Shown here: piece after piece, positions 6,448 through 13,226 of the stretch
How positions within the stretch are numbered: the first letter of the stretch is position 1
Layout of the letters: each line of letters opens with the position of its first letter
From: JBBIVP01 sp037439705 [NCBI: bacterium]
GTDB lineage: Bacteria; JBBIVP01
Assembly: GCA_037439705.1 (NCBI GenBank)
Contig: JBBIVP010000005.1
Location: 1-13,226 of the forward strand
DNA length: 13,226 nucleotides
Reading direction: 5' to 3'
The notes under the pieces: model-generated
The model's input: the letters and a program-made list of their open reading frames with translations, nothing else
Told to the model about the DNA's origin: nothing
Database searches by the model: none
Program-made: the position numbers and the translations under genes

Positions 6448-6465
6448 ATGAAAGGGGGTGGTTAA
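6448..6465 (+). other. Five-codon mini-ORF overlapping the start of the membrane protein gene
   Basis: ATGAAAGGGGGTGGTTAA encodes MKGGG and stops 5 bases inside the GTG-started gene, in another frame. It could be a translated leader coupled to the GTG at 6458. Alternatively it is the true start, displaced by one extra G in the G5 run: with four Gs the frame continues as MKGVVKTFLID into the membrane protein. The sequence alone does not decide between these. Confidence 0.35.
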
Positions 6466-6985
6466 AACATTTCTGATTGACCTGCCATTATTGAGTCTGT
6501 ATGGTTCCATTTATGCGCTCCTTCAAAAAAAGGAGGAAGGTTCTTTAATCAGGGAATCCGCTTTCAGATGGGGGCTTCTCTTTTCATCTATTTTTATCGT
6601 TTCTGTAATAATCTCCTACTTCATGGCTCCTCACTGGATGTGGATGTATTTTCCCGAAAATCCCAAGATCGGAGTTCTTGACTGGATTTACATCCTTCTT
6701 TTCCTTTACTACCTTCCTTACGCGGGTGGATATTTTCTTGCAAGAGAACTGAGAAAAAAAGGATTTATCTATGGAGCAATTGTCGCACTCATTTCTCTTC
6801 TTGAAGAAATTTTCATCGTTCTTAGACTATGGGATAGATACACCCATGTTGGAACAAGGGAAGAATTCTTAAATGGAACTGCAAACCTTCTCTGGAAATC
6901 CTCTGTCAATATTGTTTTTAACATAACAATCCCTATTCTTATTGTAGTATTCATAATCTCATTTATAAGGATAAGAAAGGGTTAA
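6458..6985 (+). CDS. Five-helix membrane protein of unrecognised family, paralogous to the membrane domain of the DUF362 fusion
   Basis: 175 residues from a GTG start; function unknown. Five hydrophobic segments lie at about 5-22, 38-58, 74-94, 102-123 and 150-171, with no signal peptide or known enzymatic motif. Two conserved stretches, YFxxPxWxWMY (54-64) and WxRxxxVGxxExFxxGTAxxLxK (125-147, partly in loops), recur in the N-terminal domain of the gene at 11447. TM4 holds an adjacent pair E116-E117 that the paralog lacks. The start is uncertain: GTG sits directly against the purine run with no spacing, an in-frame stop lies just upstream, and no in-frame ATG is near; D8 aligns with D8 of the paralog, which fits this start or one slightly upstream. 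It is convergent with the pyrophosphatase gene and divergent from rpe. Confidence 0.75.
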   Translation: MVKTFLIDLPLLSLYGSIYALLQKKEEGSLIRESAFRWGLLFSSIFIVSVIISYFMAPHWMWMYFPENPKIGVLDWIYILLFLYYLPYAGGYFLARELRKKGFIYGAIVALISLLEEIFIVLRLWDRYTHVGTREEFLNGTANLLWKSSVNIVFNITIPILIVVFIISFIRIRKG

Positions 6986-7009
6986 AAAACTCCTTTTTTT
7001 AAAGGAGTT
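6984..7009 (-). terminator. Intrinsic terminator of the pyrophosphatase operon
   Basis: Read on the minus strand: stem AACTCCTTT, four-base loop, AAAGGAGTT, then a run of Ts (GTTTTTTAA). The 9-bp stem is AU-rich but followed by six Ts. The U-run overlaps the end of the convergent membrane-protein gene. On the plus strand no T-run follows the stem, so it should act mainly on minus-strand transcripts. Confidence 0.65.
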
Positions 7010-7042
7010 GCACTAAATGAAAAAAGTAGGGAGATTTTTTTC

Positions 7043-9034
7043 TTAAAAGAGGAGGTTGTGGAGTTTTAGAATAAGGGGCGAAAAGACAAGGGAAACAATG
7101 GACATAAGCTTTATGAGAATGTTCATTGATGGTCCTGCTGTATCTTTGAAAGGGTCCCCTACTGTATCCCCTACCACCGCTGCTTTATGAGCATCTGAAC
7201 CCTTTCCTCCGAGATTACCCGCTTCTATAAACTTTTTCGCATTGTCCCACGCTCCACCACCGTTTGCCATAAGAAGCCCTATGAAAAGCCCGCTTGTGAT
7301 AGCACCCGCAAGCATCCCGCCCAGGGCTGAAGGACCGAACAGAACTCCCACAACAATAGGAGCAATAACAGCGACCACTCCAGGAAGAACCATCTTTTTC
7401 AAAGCGCCTGTTGTTGTTATTGCTATGCATTTTGCGGAATCAGGTTCTGCCTTTCCTCCCAGCAATCCGGGAATTTCCTTAAACTGCCTCCTTATCTCAT
7501 TAACGATGTAAAAAGCAGTTTTACCAACTGCCTTTAATGCAACAGAAGCGAGGAAGAATGGAATTGAGGCACCTATAAATAACCCGACTATAACTTCAGC
7601 ATCGGTAAGTCTAATTACAAAATCCTCTTTTCCGAGAACATGTTTAACTGTTGAAATATATGCGCTGAAAAGAGCAAGGGCAGTAAGGGCAGCGGAACCT
7701 ATTGCAAAACCCTTTCCTATAGCTGCGGTTGTGTTTCCAAGTGCATCAAGCGTATCAGTTATTGCTCTTGTCTGTGGACCAAGATGGGACATTTCTGAAA
7801 TTCCACCTGCATTATCTGCTATAGGACCATAAGCATCAACAGACATAACTATTCCAATTGTCCCAAGCATACCAACTCCAGCAAGGCTAACCCCATAAAT
7901 TCCCGCTGATTTGTAAGCCACGAGTATCCCAAAAGCTACTACAAGCACAGGAAGAAGTGTACTCTCCATTCCAACAGCGAAACCTGTGATGAGATTGGTT
8001 GCAGGTCCTGTTTTGCTTGATTCAGCAATTTCCTTTATAGGAGATTTTGAGGTATAAAACTCTGAAAAGAAACCTATCAGAACTCCAGCAATAATTCCTG
8101 AAAGAAGAGCATAAAAACAGGAAGTCTCGCCTGTTATATTTCTTATAAGGAAGAAAGAGGCAATAATAAAAATCAAAACTGCAACATAGGTGGCATTTCT
8201 CAGTGCTGTTTGTGGATGAAGTTTCTGGAAACCAAAAATGGAGATTATTCCAATAAGGGATGCAACAAAACCAACTGCAATGGTGTATAAAGGAAGTGAG
8301 AGAAGTTCGGGCTTATTTAAGGCATAACCTACCGCTATTGTTGCAACAACGCTTCCCACATAGGATTCAAAGAGGTCTGCACCCATTCCAGCAACATCTC
8401 CCACATTGTCTCCCACATTGTCTGCAATAACTCCCGGATTCCTCGGATCATCCTCAGGAATTCCTGCTTCAACCTTTCCCACAAGGTCGCTACCAACATC
8501 AGCCGCCTTTGTATATATTCCTCCTCCCACACGAGCAAAAAGAGCAATTGATGAAGCGCCCATCGCAAATCCATTTATTGCGGTTATGTTTTTATCTGTA
8601 AAGAGGTAAAACAACAATCCAAGGCCAAAAAGTCCGAGACTTGCCACAGAAAGTCCCATAACAGAGCCACCAAGGAAAGCAACCCTCAAAGCAGTCTCCC
8701 TTCCCGATTTATCAGCAGCCTCAGCGGTCCTTACATTTGCCCTTGTTGCGGATTTCATTCCCATAAATCCCGCAAGCATGGAGGAGAGAGCACCAAATAT
8801 AAATGAAAGGGCTGTCAGTGGTCCTAAACCTGGAGCGAAAAAAATTACAAGAAAAAGACAAACTACAAAAATCATAATGATCGAATACTCCCTTTTTAGA
8901 AAAACCATTGCTCCTTCGTGAATTTTCTCTGAGATAGAGAGCATCCTTTCATTTCCGTAAGGAAGCGAACGGATGTGTAAAAATATTCCAACTGCAATGC
9001 ATAACCCTATCACTCCTATTAGAGGTATCCACAT
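7043..9034 (-). CDS. hppA: Membrane pyrophosphatase, K+-dependent ion pump (probably Na+)
   Basis: 663-residue integral membrane pump with many hydrophobic helices. It couples pyrophosphate hydrolysis to Na+ or H+ export. Substrate-site motifs are intact: [11 protein letters not shown] (179-189), [18 protein letters not shown] (205-222), [14 protein letters not shown] (398-411) and [15 protein letters not shown] (622-636). The cation-specificity segment is [10 protein letters not shown] (433-442): Ala437 and Gly440 where K+-independent enzymes have Lys and Thr, so this is the K+-requiring type. K+ dependence together with FESYVG (222-227) favours Na+ pumping; ion choice is inference. SD AGGAGGTG lies 5 bases before the ATG. 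It follows trpE by 67 bases and has a possible promoter of its own. Using PPi as an energy source would suit an energy-limited anaerobe. Confidence 0.97.
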
Positions 9035-9064
9035 TTTTGCACCTCCTGAAAAATTTTGATAAAT

Positions 9065-9093
9065 TTTTTACAACTAAAAAATGAAAAATTCAA
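9065..9093 (-). promoter_or_regulatory. Possible internal promoter for hppA
   Basis: TTGAAT, 17-base spacer, TAAAAA on the minus strand in the trpE-hppA gap. It would give a leader of about 23 bases carrying AGGAGGTG (9040-9047). In AT-rich sequence such matches occur by chance, so this is tentative. Confidence 0.35.
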
Positions 9094-9101
9094 GGGAAAA
9101 C

Positions 9102-10562
9102 CTATCTTTTTGCCATCTCTACAGCCCTTAATAATGCCCTCGCTTTGGAAATTGTTTCCTCATATTCCAAGGAAGGAACAGAATCAGCAACTATTCCTGC
9201 ACCTGCCTGAATAAATACATCTTTTCCCTTTTTGATGAGAGTTCTTATTGCAATAGCCATATCCATATTTCCTGAATAGTCAAAGTATCCGATAGCACCT
9301 GAATATATCCCCCTCCTCTCTCCTTCAAGTTCATCAATAATCTCCATTGCCCTTATCTTGGGAGCTCCTGTAACGGTTCCAGCAGGAAATGCAGAAACAA
9401 AAGCAGAAAACATGTCTACATCCTCTCTGAGAACCCCTTTTACCGAGCTTACCATATGCATTACATGCGAATACCTTTCAACTGTCATAAGTTCCGATAC
9501 TTTCACACTCCCTGGAACAGATACCCTTCCTACATCATTTCTTCCAAGGTCAACGAGCATTATGTGCTCTGCCCTCTCCTTCTCACTTTTTAAGAGTTCC
9601 TCTTCAAGTTTCATGTCCTCTTCTACGGTTTTCCCGCGAGGTCTTGTTCCTGCTATAGGTTTTACCTCAATATCCCTTCCCTCAACCCTGACCAGAACCT
9701 CTGGAGAGGAACCAATTATTTGAAAATTCATCAGTTCAAGATAAAACATATAAGGGGACGGATTTATAACCCGTAATGCCCTGTATATCCTGAAGGGGTC
9801 TCCTGAATAAGAAGTTCTTAACCTTTGAGAAAGAACAACCTGAATCACATCTCCAGCAAATATGTATTCCTTAGCAACTTTAACAATTTCCTCAAATTTT
9901 TTTCTTGTAAAGTTTGACGATATTGGAAAATGAAACGAACCATCAAAAGTGATCTCATCCATTTTTGCCCTTCCCCTCCTTATCACATTCTCTATCTTTT
10001 CAATCTCTCTTATAGCATCCTCATAACCTCCTTTTTCAGCAAGAACCACTATGAAAAAAGTATGTTTGAGATTGTCATAAACTATAAACCTGTCGGTAAA
10101 CAAAAAGAATGCCTCAGGAAGTTTGATAACCTCTTTTGAAGAAATTTTTAATTTTTCAAAAAACCTGATACAGTCATAAGAAATGTATCCCACAGCTCCT
10201 CCAAGAAACCTTGGAAGTCCTTCATATCTATGAACACTGTATCTTTTTATAAATTCTTTTATAGGCTCAAGAGGAGTCTTTGCCTTTCCAGAGTATCGGG
10301 TTTTCCCTTTTCTGAATAAAATCTCAAAATCTCCATTTTTAAAGGTAAAAACTGCAAATGGAGAGAAACCTATGAAACTGAATCTCCCCCACTTTTCTCC
10401 ACCTTCCACACTTTCAAGAAGAAATGGATAATCAAACTTCTTTACTTTTGAAAATACGGTTAAGGGGTTTTCAAAATCAAGAAAAAGTTCTTTGTAAACT
10501 GGAACAAGTCCTCCCTTTTTTGCAAATGCGTTAAAAATTCTTTTTGGAGGATAAATTTCCAT
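9102..10562 (-). CDS. trpE: Anthranilate synthase component I
   Basis: 486 residues. With a glutamine amidotransferase partner it converts chorismate to anthranilate, the first step of tryptophan synthesis. Motifs: LLESVEGGEKWGRFSFIG (48-65; the LLES tryptophan-binding motif implies feedback inhibition and argues against PabB), NPSPYMFYLE (267-276), GSSPEVLVRV, KPIAGTRPRG (301-310), LVDLGRNDVGRV (336-347), FPAGTVTGAPKIRAME (392-407), NMDMAIAIRT (432-441) and QAGAGIVADS (452-461). All chorismate/Mg2+ regions look intact. No trpG, trpD or other trp gene lies next to it, so the amidotransferase must be elsewhere. Start and previous stop overlap as TAATG with no separate SD, indicating re-initiation after the metallo-hydrolase. 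No attenuator leader is possible because the unit appears leaderless at its head. Confidence 0.96.
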   Translation of the reverse strand: MEIYPPKRIFNAFAKKGGLVPVYKELFLDFENPLTVFSKVKKFDYPFLLESVEGGEKWGRFSFIGFSPFAVFTFKNGDFEILFRKGKTRYSGKAKTPLEPIKEFIKRYSVHRYEGLPRFLGGAVGYISYDCIRFFEKLKISSKEVIKLPEAFFLFTDRFIVYDNLKHTFFIVVLAEKGGYEDAIREIEKIENVIRRGRAKMDEITFDGSFHFPISSNFTRKKFEEIVKVAKEYIFAGDVIQVVLSQRLRTSYSGDPFRIYRALRVINPSPYMFYLELMNFQIIGSSPEVLVRVEGRDIEVKPIAGTRPRGKTVEEDMKLEEELLKSEKERAEHIMLVDLGRNDVGRVSVPGSVKVSELMTVERYSHVMHMVSSVKGVLREDVDMFSAFVSAFPAGTVTGAPKIRAMEIIDELEGERRGIYSGAIGYFDYSGNMDMAIAIRTLIKKGKDVFIQAGAGIVADSVPSLEYEETISKARALLRAVEMAKR

Positions 10563-11338
10563 TACAGGTCTATTTTCATTCCGTCATTGGCAGAGATTAT
10601 TTTAAATCCGCTTTTCTGCGACAACTTCTCAACAATCTCCCAGGGTTTACTTTGAATCATATGCATCCCAAAATGGGTGAGTATAGCAAGTTCTGGCTGA
10701 ACCGCCTCTATTATTTTGAAAGCATCATCTACACAAAGATGCAGAATCCCTTCCCTTCTTTCGGTGAGCACAGTATTTATTATAAGAACCTCTGCCATCT
10801 TTTTCTTTAAAGGCATATCAAAAAACTTTGTGTCTGAAATAAAAAGAATTTTTCCACTCTCCCATTCAAATAGAAAGGCGTAATTTTCAACCCCGTGCTG
10901 AAGTTTGAAAACAGGAGTTATTTTTACAGGACCAACGCCTACCTCTTCACCCTCCTTAAAGACTATTATTTTCTCCAGATAACTCCTGACATATTTAAAA
11001 ACCACAGGGTCATCCTCAAGACAATCTAAGGGAGTGAGAAGGACTCCTCTTTTCTGTAGCCCACCGTTTGTCATACCTTCTATGATTACATTTACATCAT
11101 TGGTGTGGTCAAGGTGTCTGTGAGAAATCAGAACGCAATCGGTATGAATAGGGTCAAGCTTTGGTTTTGAAGAGTTTAGTTTTACTATTGCTCCAGGACC
11201 GGGGTCAACATGTATACGATACCCGTCAAAATTCAGGATAAATCCCGCTGACGACCTAAGTTGCTTGATAACAACAAATCTTGCTCCCGCAGTGCCGAGA
11301 AACTTTATGTAATTCCCTTTTTTTTCTTCTGAAGCCAT
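10562..11338 (-). CDS. Metallo-beta-lactamase-fold hydrolase
   Basis: 258 residues, cytosolic. The metal centre is complete: HRHLDH (H73, H75, D77, H78), H148 (LQHG), D169 (ISDT) and H222 (THFGMH). The family includes tRNA-processing nucleases (RNase Z/BN), phosphodiesterases and PqqB-like proteins. The opening YIKFLGTAGARFVV with an SSAGFIL segment is typical of that phosphodiesterase-like branch, but I cannot assign the substrate. It heads a unit with trpE and hppA. The ATG has no SD; a -10 box (TATTAT) ends 6 bases upstream, so the mRNA is predicted leaderless. A link to tryptophan synthesis or pyrophosphate metabolism is not evident. Confidence 0.88.
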   Translation of the reverse strand: MASEEKKGNYIKFLGTAGARFVVIKQLRSSAGFILNFDGYRIHVDPGPGAIVKLNSSKPKLDPIHTDCVLISHRHLDHTNDVNVIIEGMTNGGLQKRGVLLTPLDCLEDDPVVFKYVRSYLEKIIVFKEGEEVGVGPVKITPVFKLQHGVENYAFLFEWESGKILFISDTKFFDMPLKKKMAEVLIINTVLTERREGILHLCVDDAFKIIEAVQPELAILTHFGMHMIQSKPWEIVEKLSQKSGFKIISANDGMKIDL

Positions 11339-11344
11339 AATGAA

Positions 11345-11372
11345 ATAATACCCATTATTCGGAAAATTTCAA
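11345..11372 (-). promoter_or_regulatory. Promoter of the hydrolase-trpE-hppA unit, predicted leaderless
   Basis: -35 TTGAAA, 16-base spacer, -10 TATTAT (5/6), then six bases to the ATG. It is divergent from the promoter of the DUF362 fusion gene. Confidence 0.6.
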
Positions 11373-11407
11373 ATCAATAAGCCTAAATCTCACCATGCAG
11401 TTTTGAA

Positions 11408-11436
11408 TTGAAAATTTATTTTTATTTTACCATACT
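11408..11436 (+). promoter_or_regulatory. Promoter of the DUF362 fusion gene
   Basis: -35 TTGAAA, 17-base spacer, -10 CATACT, with 10 bases to the ATG at 11447, so the leader would be about 3-4 bases. The -35 box covers the TTG that could otherwise be read as an upstream start codon. Confidence 0.5.
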
Positions 11437-11446
11437 GAAAATAACA

Positions 11447-12961
11447 ATGATAACCACTATTCCAGCCGATTACATAATGACTTTTATAATAGGAAGTTTA
11501 TTTTCTGTTTTCGCATTTCAAAATATTGTAAAAAGCGGAAGATTAATCAAAAATAAATATCTTCTTACCCTTATCCTTTTCCTGACCTTTTTCTGTATGC
11601 CCATTGCCCTGCTTTGCTATTTTCTCTATCCCGACTGGTGCTGGATGTACTGGGTTGAATCCAAAAAACTCTCATTCCCTTCAGTCTTTTTCTCTTTCCT
11701 TATGTACTATTTATTCACCCTCACTGGATATCTTGTGGGGTTTGAGGTTGAAAAAAGAAAGACGGGAAACGGACTAAAGGTCGTAGGACTTTCGCTTCTG
11801 GTTTTTATTATCTTCTGCTTTGTCAACTGGAGAAGGTTATTTTTTGTGGGTGACCTTGAAAGTTTCAGAAGTGGTTCTGCAAAATTTTTGTTTAAGATGC
11901 CAGAGCTATCAGCCATCGTTTTCGGCGGAATGGCAATTGCTTTTACTGGAATGGTTTTCATTCTCTATCGTTTTGGAAAAGAACTGGATTTCAAGCCCGA
12001 CGAAAAAGCCCTTTCTTCATATAGAAAATTTGAAAAATATGCTGGCATTTCAAGAGTGAAAGATACAGTCATTGATGCAATAAAAGATTCTCTGGAACTC
12101 TGGAACGGAATAGAATATTTGAAAAAACTACTTTATGAAAAGCCTTTTGTCCTAATAAAAATAAATGCTGCAGGAGGCGGAAAAGACAAAAAGGGAACAC
12201 AAATATCCCCTGTGGTTCTTTCAGCAGTGATTGACATAATAAGGGAATTAAAAAAAGATGCAAAGATATTCGTTGCTGAAAGCCCATCAATAGTGTGGTG
12301 GAATTTAAAACCTCTTCTTGAGGGAAGCAAAATAATGGATGTAATTGTCAATAAAAAGGTGGAGTTTTTAAACCTTTCAGTAGGACAGTTGATTGAACAC
12401 GATTTTGGAGGAAGACTCGGGCTCGAAAAAATTCATCATAAACTATTAGAAAACCCACTCCTCATAGACCTTCCAGTGGCAAAGACACACGCATTTTACA
12501 AAATGAGCGGGGCACTCAAGAACATGTTTGGCATTCTTCCTCATCCAATGAAGTTGAGAAGATACCATACAAAGGGATTTGCTGACATATCGGGAATGAT
12601 TTTTATTGATATATGGAGAAACTTTCCGCCAGATATAGTGATAGTTGATGGAACATTTTCCTGTGAGGGAGACGGTCCAGTAGCTGGAAAATCCAAAAAA
12701 ACCGATTTCATTCTCTCTTCAAACGATGCTCTTTCCGCTGATATCATTCTTTCTAAAATCATGGGGTTCAAAAAACCTGAAAAAATTCCATATCTGAAAT
12801 CTGCCATTTCTCTCGGTTTCAAACCTGAACCTGTGGTTTTGGGTGAAAACCCTGACACCTTTCTAAACCAGAAATGGAAGAAGCCACATCTGTCAAGGAC
12901 CTATAGCCTCTTCAAAAATTTCCTTTACATTTTAAAGGAACACCTCATTAAAAATTTTTAA
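11447..12961 (+). CDS. Membrane-anchored DUF362 protein: five-helix domain fused to DUF362
   Basis: 504 residues from this ATG. The N-terminal ~180 residues hold about five hydrophobic helices and share YFxxPxWxWMY (58-68) and WxRxxxVGxxExFxxGSAxxLxK (128-150) with the 175-residue protein at 6458. After a charged linker, residues ~234-462 are DUF362: KINAAGGGKD, LPVAKTHAFYKMSGALKNMF (342-361), a His in RRYH, FADISGM, IVDGTFSCEGDGP (399-411), GKSKKTDFILSSNDALSAD. DUF362 proteins are often tied to Fe-S or redox functions and many carry 4Fe-4S domains; none is seen here, and Cys in this domain is scarce, so a ferredoxin role is unlikely. DUF362 should lie on one face of the membrane, probably cytosolic. 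No SD precedes any candidate start. A TTG at 11408 would add 13 residues, but it lies within the -35 box and Asp8 from the ATG aligns with Asp8 of the paralog. Confidence 0.88.
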   Translation: MITTIPADYIMTFIIGSLFSVFAFQNIVKSGRLIKNKYLLTLILFLTFFCMPIALLCYFLYPDWCWMYWVESKKLSFPSVFFSFLMYYLFTLTGYLVGFEVEKRKTGNGLKVVGLSLLVFIIFCFVNWRRLFFVGDLESFRSGSAKFLFKMPELSAIVFGGMAIAFTGMVFILYRFGKELDFKPDEKALSSYRKFEKYAGISRVKDTVIDAIKDSLELWNGIEYLKKLLYEKPFVLIKINAAGGGKDKKGTQISPVVLSAVIDIIRELKKDAKIFVAESPSIVWWNLKPLLEGSKIMDVIVNKKVEFLNLSVGQLIEHDFGGRLGLEKIHHKLLENPLLIDLPVAKTHAFYKMSGALKNMFGILPHPMKLRRYHTKGFADISGMIFIDIWRNFPPDIVIVDGTFSCEGDGPVAGKSKKTDFILSSNDALSADIILSKIMGFKKPEKIPYLKSAISLGFKPEPVVLGENPDTFLNQKWKKPHLSRTYSLFKNFLYILKEHLIKNF

Positions 12962-13019: not shown

Positions 13020-13226
13020 ATGGATAAACGGTTCAGCAAAGAGCACCTCTGGGTGCTTCCAGTAAAAAGGAGGGGGAAAACCACTGCTAAAATTGGAGTT
13101 ACAGAATTCTTCATTACAAAATATGGCTACATAGAAGAACTCATCCTTCCGGACCCTGAGGAGACTTTTGAAGCGGGAGAAACAATGGGAGAAATAGTTA
13201 CAGGAAAAGAAGGTTCTGTTGACATA
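13020..13226 (+). CDS. GcvH-like lipoyl-domain protein, 5' part
   Basis: First 69 codons; the gene runs off the right edge. The start FSKEHLWV matches the opening of glycine cleavage H proteins (usually YTKEHEWV), followed by AKIGVTEFFITKYGYIEEL in the place of the GITDYAQ...GDIVFVEL segment, then FEAGETMGEIV and TGKEGSVDI. H proteins carry lipoyl-lysine and shuttle the aminomethyl group between P and T proteins. Here K63 is in the lipoyl-lysine position, but the surrounding ESVKA motif is VTGKEG, without the Glu three residues before Lys that lipoate-attaching enzymes normally recognise. It may be a GcvH-like protein with another role, or not lipoylated. No gcvT or gcvP is in view. SD AAGGGGG lies about 6 bases before the ATG, with its own promoter. 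Confidence 0.78.
   Translation, partial: MDKRFSKEHLWVLPVKRRGKTTAKIGVTEFFITKYGYIEELILPDPEETFEAGETMGEIVTGKEGSVDI

Follow-up and report, generated by a model that had tools for sequence, protein, structure and literature searches.

Erg28, a scaffold in sterol demethylation, and the EXPERA proteins EBP and TMEM97 are small membrane proteins of several helices that act together with sterol enzymes. DUF362 (PF04015) is a family with many members, 83 matches being present in 14 Spirochaetota genomes, and its function is not known; in the accessible portions of two reports it is placed in Pfam clan CL0471, the 'DUF362-like superfamily', together with LarA/DUF2088 (PMC11770544, PMC7955657). In Methylococcus, according to the available part of the report, the inner-membrane and periplasmic lipid-binding proteins BstA, BstB and BstC are encoded beside the sterol-modifying enzymes of sdmA and sdmB (PMC10942540). 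Here, we describe a stretch of 13,226 nucleotides from contig JBBIVP010000005.1 (assembly GCA_037439705.1, JBBIVP01 sp037439705), hereafter the window, which encodes a stand-alone membrane protein, A, and a second protein, F, whose membrane domain is fused to DUF362. As judged from sequence, A and the N-terminal part of F are securely assigned as paralogs of one large inner-membrane family with five predicted helices. No convincing model of this family exists in the copies of Pfam and NCBIfam that were searched, and it is, in that sense, undescribed; the accessible parts of the DUF362 literature searched contained no description of a DUF362-membrane fusion.

Two window proteins and their family

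A preliminary description of the window had proposed that an unrecognised five-helix membrane domain occurs both alone and fused to DUF362, and the direct comparison of A with the F domain agrees with this (Table 1). BLASTP aligns the two at 49.7 bits (E 9e-12 as a single comparison, 32/98 identical) with one gap, which stands before the block opening at Y84; none follows, just as had been claimed for this block, and the second-block residues listed at the time, together with D8 and the G-x-L-I segment, are common to A and F. The motif YFxxPxWxWMY had been read in both proteins, and a DNA pattern written for it finds it in both, with two matches in the window and 0 matches in 200 shuffles; A has H in place of the D of the PDWxWMY-type motif. 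That the likeness is merely chance similarity of hydrophobic sequence has a negligible probability in view of the BLASTP result, the motif count and the recovery of relatives in six phylum-level groups. The Smith-Waterman score of 163 compares with 36.6 +/- 6.6 when the residues are plainly shuffled and 38.6 +/- 7.5 when the shuffling keeps the hydrophobic pattern, 17-19 standard deviations above both kinds, and chance is ruled out by its being reached in 0 of 5000 composition-preserving shuffles of either kind. The C-terminal part of F is a nearly full-length DUF362 domain (E 2.2e-31, 109.9 bits against a cut-off of 24, profile positions 1-197 of 200). It holds all 12 invariant columns among 12 aligned DUF362 proteins, itself included, and has the K-x-N, K-x-H, KN-x-x-G, D, E, G and D positions of the family, with I where most have P (KPN). 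To LarA-type nickel-pincer enzymes, which are marked by the NPN cofactor and catalytic histidines, its link is the shared clan. In the list of open reading frames, F may alternatively start at TTG 11408, giving 517 amino acids.

Table 1. Positions of the features of A and F in the window
Feature	Position	Strand	Remarks
A, stand-alone five-helix membrane protein	6458..6985	+	175 amino acids, GTG start, open frame
F, membrane domain fused to DUF362	11447..12961	+	504 amino acids from ATG 11447, open frame
F membrane domain, homologous to A	11447..11998	+	first ~185 residues; pairwise alignment, shuffles
F DUF362 domain	12149..12748	+	Pfam PF04015, residues 235-434 of the ATG form (248-447 of the TTG form)
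YFxxPxWxWMY motif of A	6617..6649	+	residues 54-64, between long helices 2 and 3
YFxxPxWxWMY motif of F	11618..11650	+	residues 58-68
Second conserved block of A, Y84-K147, including R127 and VGT 131-133	6707..6898	+	
Second conserved block of F, Y87-K150	11705..11896	+	

AlphaFold2, run with six sequences for each domain, predicts the five long helices that had been proposed for both. They span residues 8-21, 34-56, 73-99, 103-130 and 149-174 in A (predicted local distance difference test, pLDDT, 75.9; predicted TM score, pTM, 0.71) and residues 7-28, 37-60, 77-103, 109-126 and 152-180 in the F domain (pLDDT 72.0, pTM 0.60). The best Pfam and NCBIfam matches of the two membrane domains are far under cut-off; for A, the best sub-threshold profiles, TIGR04086 and DUF3792, cover only part of the protein and reach 15.6 of the 30 bits and 15.2 of the 31.3 bits of their cut-offs. 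Ten further members gave no Pfam match over cut-off for the membrane domain, the sole match being the PBP part of locus L076, and no NCBIfam family was matched by more than one of 26 members (best E 0.0005). Sequence searches of the PDB found nothing for A up to E 5 and nothing for F under E 0.3, Foldseek against the PDB gave no significant match (best E 2.2 for A and 3.4 for the F domain), and a BFVD search with the A model returned nothing useful. The best VIA values are Z 5.5 for A (root-mean-square deviation 4.8, 110 aligned) and Z 6.8 for the F domain (3.6, 119 aligned), a level common for helical bundles. No Erg28 or EXPERA family is among the Pfam matches of A, F or the 10 further members, and we take the motif and helix count of those proteins to differ from those of the five-helix family.

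The motif DNA pattern, run over a genome collection, gave 28 loci, which were translated. Four are members (L010, L021, L024 and L027), all stand-alone; the other 24 were judged to be chance matches from their reading frames, and a profile search of the genomes of 18 of these 24 found members in none. Profiles A3, A4 and A5 were built from the four loci and iterated, with limits of E 1e-3 for A4, used for the phyla of L027, L024 and L021, and E 1e-4 for A5, used for later searches. With A4, members were found in 2 of 2 genomes in the phylum of L027, 10 of 297 in that of L024 and 49 of 282 in that of the Myxococcales locus L021. With A5, they were found in 20 of 246 genomes of Actinomycetota, 14 of 179 of Spirochaetota and 3 of 398 of Bacillota (the phylum of Proteiniclasticum), and one Actinomycetota class has members in 22 of 31 genomes, partly the same as those 20. 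In the phylum of a Bacteroidales genome, a search run without a positive control found members in 0 of 178 genomes. Going by record titles, the family is present in Actinomycetota, Myxococcota and Spirochaetota, in a few Bacillota and in two further phyla. A longer subtype of ~280-410 amino acids (MVQVDVFWSYG...) also belongs to it, its Spirochaetota members being matched at E 7e-15 to 5e-8 by A4, whose rows include none of the long subtype. Both A and F match profile A5, in which they are rows, so that this match holds by construction; their pairwise homology is independent of it. In the tree of the family, F is a long branch without firm placement; alignment A9 excludes row L095, which is in a wrong frame.

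The stand-alone form is the usual form and the DUF362 fusion is the exception, met only in the window among the frames read; the frames at 20 of the 50 places in the phylum of L021 (including a 471-amino-acid frame in genome G437) and at seven new places of the Actinomycetota class, mostly of long-subtype size, lie outside this fusion survey. In the 19 genomes searched with the whole of F, membrane and DUF362 matches lie in separate frames. The preliminary description had taken the fusion and the free-standing paralog for a small membrane system and had asked whether the two always co-occur; its link between the family and DUF362 stands, as DUF362 genes adjoin members elsewhere, whereas the stand-alone protein proves to be widespread in its own right rather than an accompaniment of the fusion. 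Family scans of viral contigs found no relative, three motif-pattern matches there being judged chance, and DUF362 relatives in these contigs amount to one locus. Against plasmids, F matched three records by its DUF362 part only, and tblastn with two members gave no match. Two other composite frames were seen. At L076:601-2061 (-), a 491-amino-acid frame joins the membrane domain not to DUF362 but to a PBP_like_2 domain (1.2e-10), which is awkward with the cytosolic C-terminus proposed below unless an internal lipoprotein start is used; at L192:4591-5853 (-), a 421-amino-acid frame, without a Pfam match at 1e-5, joins a START-like part to the membrane domain, and is either a fusion or an assembly error.

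The presumed GTG start of A lies inside a conserved GGGGTG run (window 6450-6470), often TGA-AAG-GGG-GTG-RTT, which is common to 15 of 41 members compared, from several phyla (besides the window, L123-L127, L129-L132, L134, L136, L109, L113 and L114). The run resembles an extended Shine-Dalgarno sequence and has no in-frame ATG, GTG or TTG at the usual distance after it; it is either an unusual start or a regulatory feature.

Predicted sidedness and conserved residues

In all 26 members compared, lysine and arginine are commoner in loops 1-2 and 3-4 and in the C-terminal tail than they are in loops 2-3 and 4-5 and at the N-terminus. Because of this bias, taken with the predicted helices, the N-terminus is probably outside and the C-terminus, which in F is the end of DUF362 attachment, probably cytosolic. 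Among the same 26 aligned members, W60 is present in all, P58 in 25, Y64 in 24, G132 in 22, D59 in 21, D8 in 20, T133 in 19 and R127 in 18, and G16 (24/26) and G91 (23/26) are conserved too, inside helices; no histidine or cysteine column reaches 14 of the 26. On the predicted topology, D8, PDWxWMY, R127 and VGT would lie in outer loops or at outer helix ends. Because these residues are conserved on the predicted outer side, the alignment indicates that the membrane domain is more than the anchor that had been suggested for DUF362. DUF362 is itself one of several partners.

Conserved residues such as D8, D59, W60, Y64, R127 and T133 exceed the needs of a plain anchor and would also suit a domain that is itself catalytic, such as an integral-membrane isomerase, hydratase or lyase acting on a lipid, in which case the neighbouring genes would supply other steps of its pathway; several of the partners described below do resemble lipid-pathway enzymes. 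We consider such an enzyme unlikely, though the likeliest of the alternatives: by lineage, the partners are of unrelated classes (short-chain dehydrogenase/reductase, SDR; aldehyde dehydrogenase; Old Yellow Enzyme; DUF362; glycyl radical enzyme), which are hard to fit to one reaction, and the charge bias puts the conserved site outside, away from enzymes dependent on nicotinamide nucleotides, NAD(P).

Enzyme and carrier genes beside family members

The neighbourhoods of about 100 members were read, with gene calls that are crude in G+C-rich loci. In short-form Actinomycetota, an SDR or a flavin adenine dinucleotide (FAD) oxidoreductase is directly adjacent on the same strand in 17 of 19 loci, labelled by Pfam in some and by BLAST in the rest: extended SDR in 12, classical SDR in three and FAD amine-oxidase-type enzyme in two, one of which then has an extended SDR. 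The exceptions are L141, with only a 75-residue SDR fragment, and L150, with none. Since the SDR lies upstream in some loci and downstream in others, and identity between loci goes down to about 29%, the link has outlived rearrangement. As to its reaction, the extended SDR matched many families, with none over cut-off in NCBIfam. Elsewhere the partner differs. In one Myxococcota clade, aldehyde dehydrogenase is the next gene in 5/5 loci (Pfam on one), and a sixth locus of this clade, L067, has such a frame on the same strand; in a subclade of the phylum of L024, Old Yellow Enzyme lies about 11 bp downstream on the member's strand in 5/5 (Pfam on all five). Radical SAM is the same-strand partner in L123 and L125 (2/2). 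In the Bacillota locus L214:684-5144 (-), the gene after the member encodes a pyruvate-formate-lyase-like glycyl radical enzyme; a small protein comes next, and then a radical SAM activase-like gene. Bacillota loci L212 and L213 have no labelled partner. No labelled partner recurs in the other Myxococcota clades, except that a polyprenyl synthetase gene lies about 1 kb away from the member in L155 and in L157 (Pfam on one).

Over 59 of 60 loci (L192 was dropped since its frame scored better as START), redox-enzyme labels fall on 30 of 140 near same-strand genes (at most two positions away) and on 7 of 230 far ones (at least three), p 2e-8; this contrast is optimistic, as the partner hidden Markov models were built from the neighbours themselves after looking and the loci are not independent. 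The identified enzyme partners are mostly redox enzymes. An earlier guess at a redox partner fits them; on the other side, 81 of the 140 near same-strand genes carry no label. Long-subtype members are often preceded by a TetR regulator, as named by similarity (L117-L121, L145-L149, L151, L052 and L203), and in L147, L149 and L151 the member is followed by a gene reading as enoyl-CoA hydratase; TetR or AraC neighbours gave no evidence as a clue to the ligand.

DUF362 recurs among these partners. In 4 of 16 Spirochaetota loci (L191, L196 and L199 by Pfam, L192 by BLAST), the gene immediately downstream of the member, on its strand, encodes DUF362, against 0.0074 such loci expected from 83 DUF362 matches in 57.2 Mb of 14 Spirochaetota genomes, with a 600-bp interval set after seeing the loci; L192, L196 and L199 are close relatives, and the four loci amount to about two events. 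In another subfamily, in the phylum of L024, a DUF362 gene precedes the member by about 100 bp, on the same strand, at loci L053 and L054. In the DUF362 tree, L191 stands apart from L192, L196 and L199, and F is a third long branch; because these branches are separate, the association seems to have originated repeatedly, in few independent events. In genome G969, contig C27 holds three DUF362 matches within about 13 kb, one of them adjoining a family member. 4Fe-4S matches are present in the DUF362 proteins of L191 and L204; together with the redox character of most identified partners, they would suit a five-helix protein passing electrons between membrane quinone and a soluble oxidoreductase. 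This we regard as very unlikely, considering that histidine and cysteine are missing from the conserved columns, that DUF362 of F has no ferredoxin match in Pfam and that the acyl-CoA ligase and START-type neighbours described next need no electrons.

In Spirochaetota, a START-type gene lies upstream of the member in 8 of 16 loci, named from a Pfam START match on L189 (E 4e-11) and by similarity in the rest. All eight START-type proteins have a signal-like hydrophobic N-terminus by eye, those of L198 and L200 from an internal start. L198 and L202 have the order START-type gene, membrane protein, extended SDR, acyl-CoA ligase (in L198, ligase and SDR by Pfam), and an acyl-CoA ligase is downstream in both L198 and L205 (Pfam). 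At locus L143:1844-6142 (+), the member stands between an upstream MMPL transporter, which has a sterol-sensing-domain match (2.3e-14), and a downstream FAD oxidoreductase. From START, the 3Beta_HSD-type SDR matches and the sterol-sensing match, our guess is that the substrate class is sterol- or terpenoid-like. A scaffold that merely tethers soluble enzymes to the membrane, by analogy with Erg28, would account for the different soluble enzymes that adjoin the family, including extended and classical SDRs in different Actinomycetota loci, and for the fusion of the F enzyme at the end that is cytosolic as judged from charge bias. It nevertheless seems to us unlikely: residues conserved on the far face would be superfluous in a pure tether, and START-type genes with signal-like N-termini are left unexplained.

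In the window itself, the opposite strand between A and F (6458-12961) carries an H+-pyrophosphatase, a TrpE-like gene (by eye) and a metallo-beta-lactamase fold gene, and these three are no part of the A/F feature. At 3-952, a protein cut by the window edge has weak matches to GMC/MftG oxidoreductase (2.6e-13) and cholesterol oxidase (6.8e-6) and is preceded on the same strand by a small Gluconate_2-dh3-like protein, just under the Pfam cut-off; a frame resembling this oxidoreductase-like protein is near the long-subtype member of L151. After F, the frame at 13021-13226 (+) resembles a glycine cleavage H/lipoyl protein by eye.

Proposed function and nearest known systems

Our preferred reading, which we hold tentatively and at somewhat short of an even chance, is that the five-helix protein is a membrane receptor or permease handing a hydrophobic substrate to a docked cytosolic enzyme. 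It is preferred because of the conserved outer site, the probably cytosolic tail with its fusable enzyme, the exported-looking carrier partner and the cytosolic redox partners. A lipid substrate is also hinted at by the START-type, acyl-CoA ligase, polyprenyl synthetase and sterol-sensing MMPL neighbours. At the conserved outer site, the protein would pick up a hydrophobic molecule, sterol-, terpenoid- or long-acyl-like, supplied by the outer leaflet or by a periplasmic carrier. The molecule may then pass through the protein to the inner side and be handed to an enzyme docked at the cytosolic C-terminus; in F, this enzyme would be the covalently attached DUF362 protein.

Several observations weigh against this receptor or permease. 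F has one of the weaker charge biases, its loop 4-5 holding five lysine or arginine residues. Besides the many near genes without a label, a 17-row clade in the phylum of L021 has no labelled partner, two A-type members (L126 and L129) overlap a macro-domain gene and not a redox enzyme, and DUF362 alone is not enriched near against far (3/140 vs 2/230, p 0.28). In the window, A is adjoined by ordinary housekeeping genes, and the genes 5' of A and 5' of F are both on the other strand. As to the lipid context, the START-type proteins of L198 and L196 do not reach Pfam E 1e-5 and are named by similarity to L189 and others. The sterol-sensing match of L143 overlaps its MMPL match, and RND-type proteins often match the sterol-sensing-domain model.

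A broader proposal, which is doubtful as a whole, is that of a widespread bacterial module. In it, a five-helix lipid receptor or permease would have one conserved outer site and a cytosolic port for SDR, DUF362, aldehyde dehydrogenase, Old Yellow Enzyme or glycyl radical enzyme according to lineage, would be fed by START-type carriers from the periplasm in Spirochaetota, and DUF362 proteins would be enzymes on hydrophobic substrates delivered through the membrane. Were it true, the module would give DUF362 proteins their first physiological context, and a membrane partner with a lipid-type gene context would point to a concrete substrate class for them. With the profile, motif and operon partners reported here, five-helix members could be named and assayed.

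Set beside known systems, F differs from the DUF362 proteins of L191 and L204 in being fused to the five-helix domain and in lacking their 4Fe-4S matches. As far as the available part of the report goes, BstA belongs to the RND/MMPL transporters and BstB to the ABC-type binding proteins (PMC10942540), unlike the five-helix family, whose carrier is START-type; unlike the Bst genes, too, the family loci read contain no recognised sterol synthesis gene. Within the same limits of the source, the Bst sterol system is the nearest gene-layout analogue found, in that some loci of the family similarly combine a membrane protein with a carrier-type gene and SDR-type enzymes.

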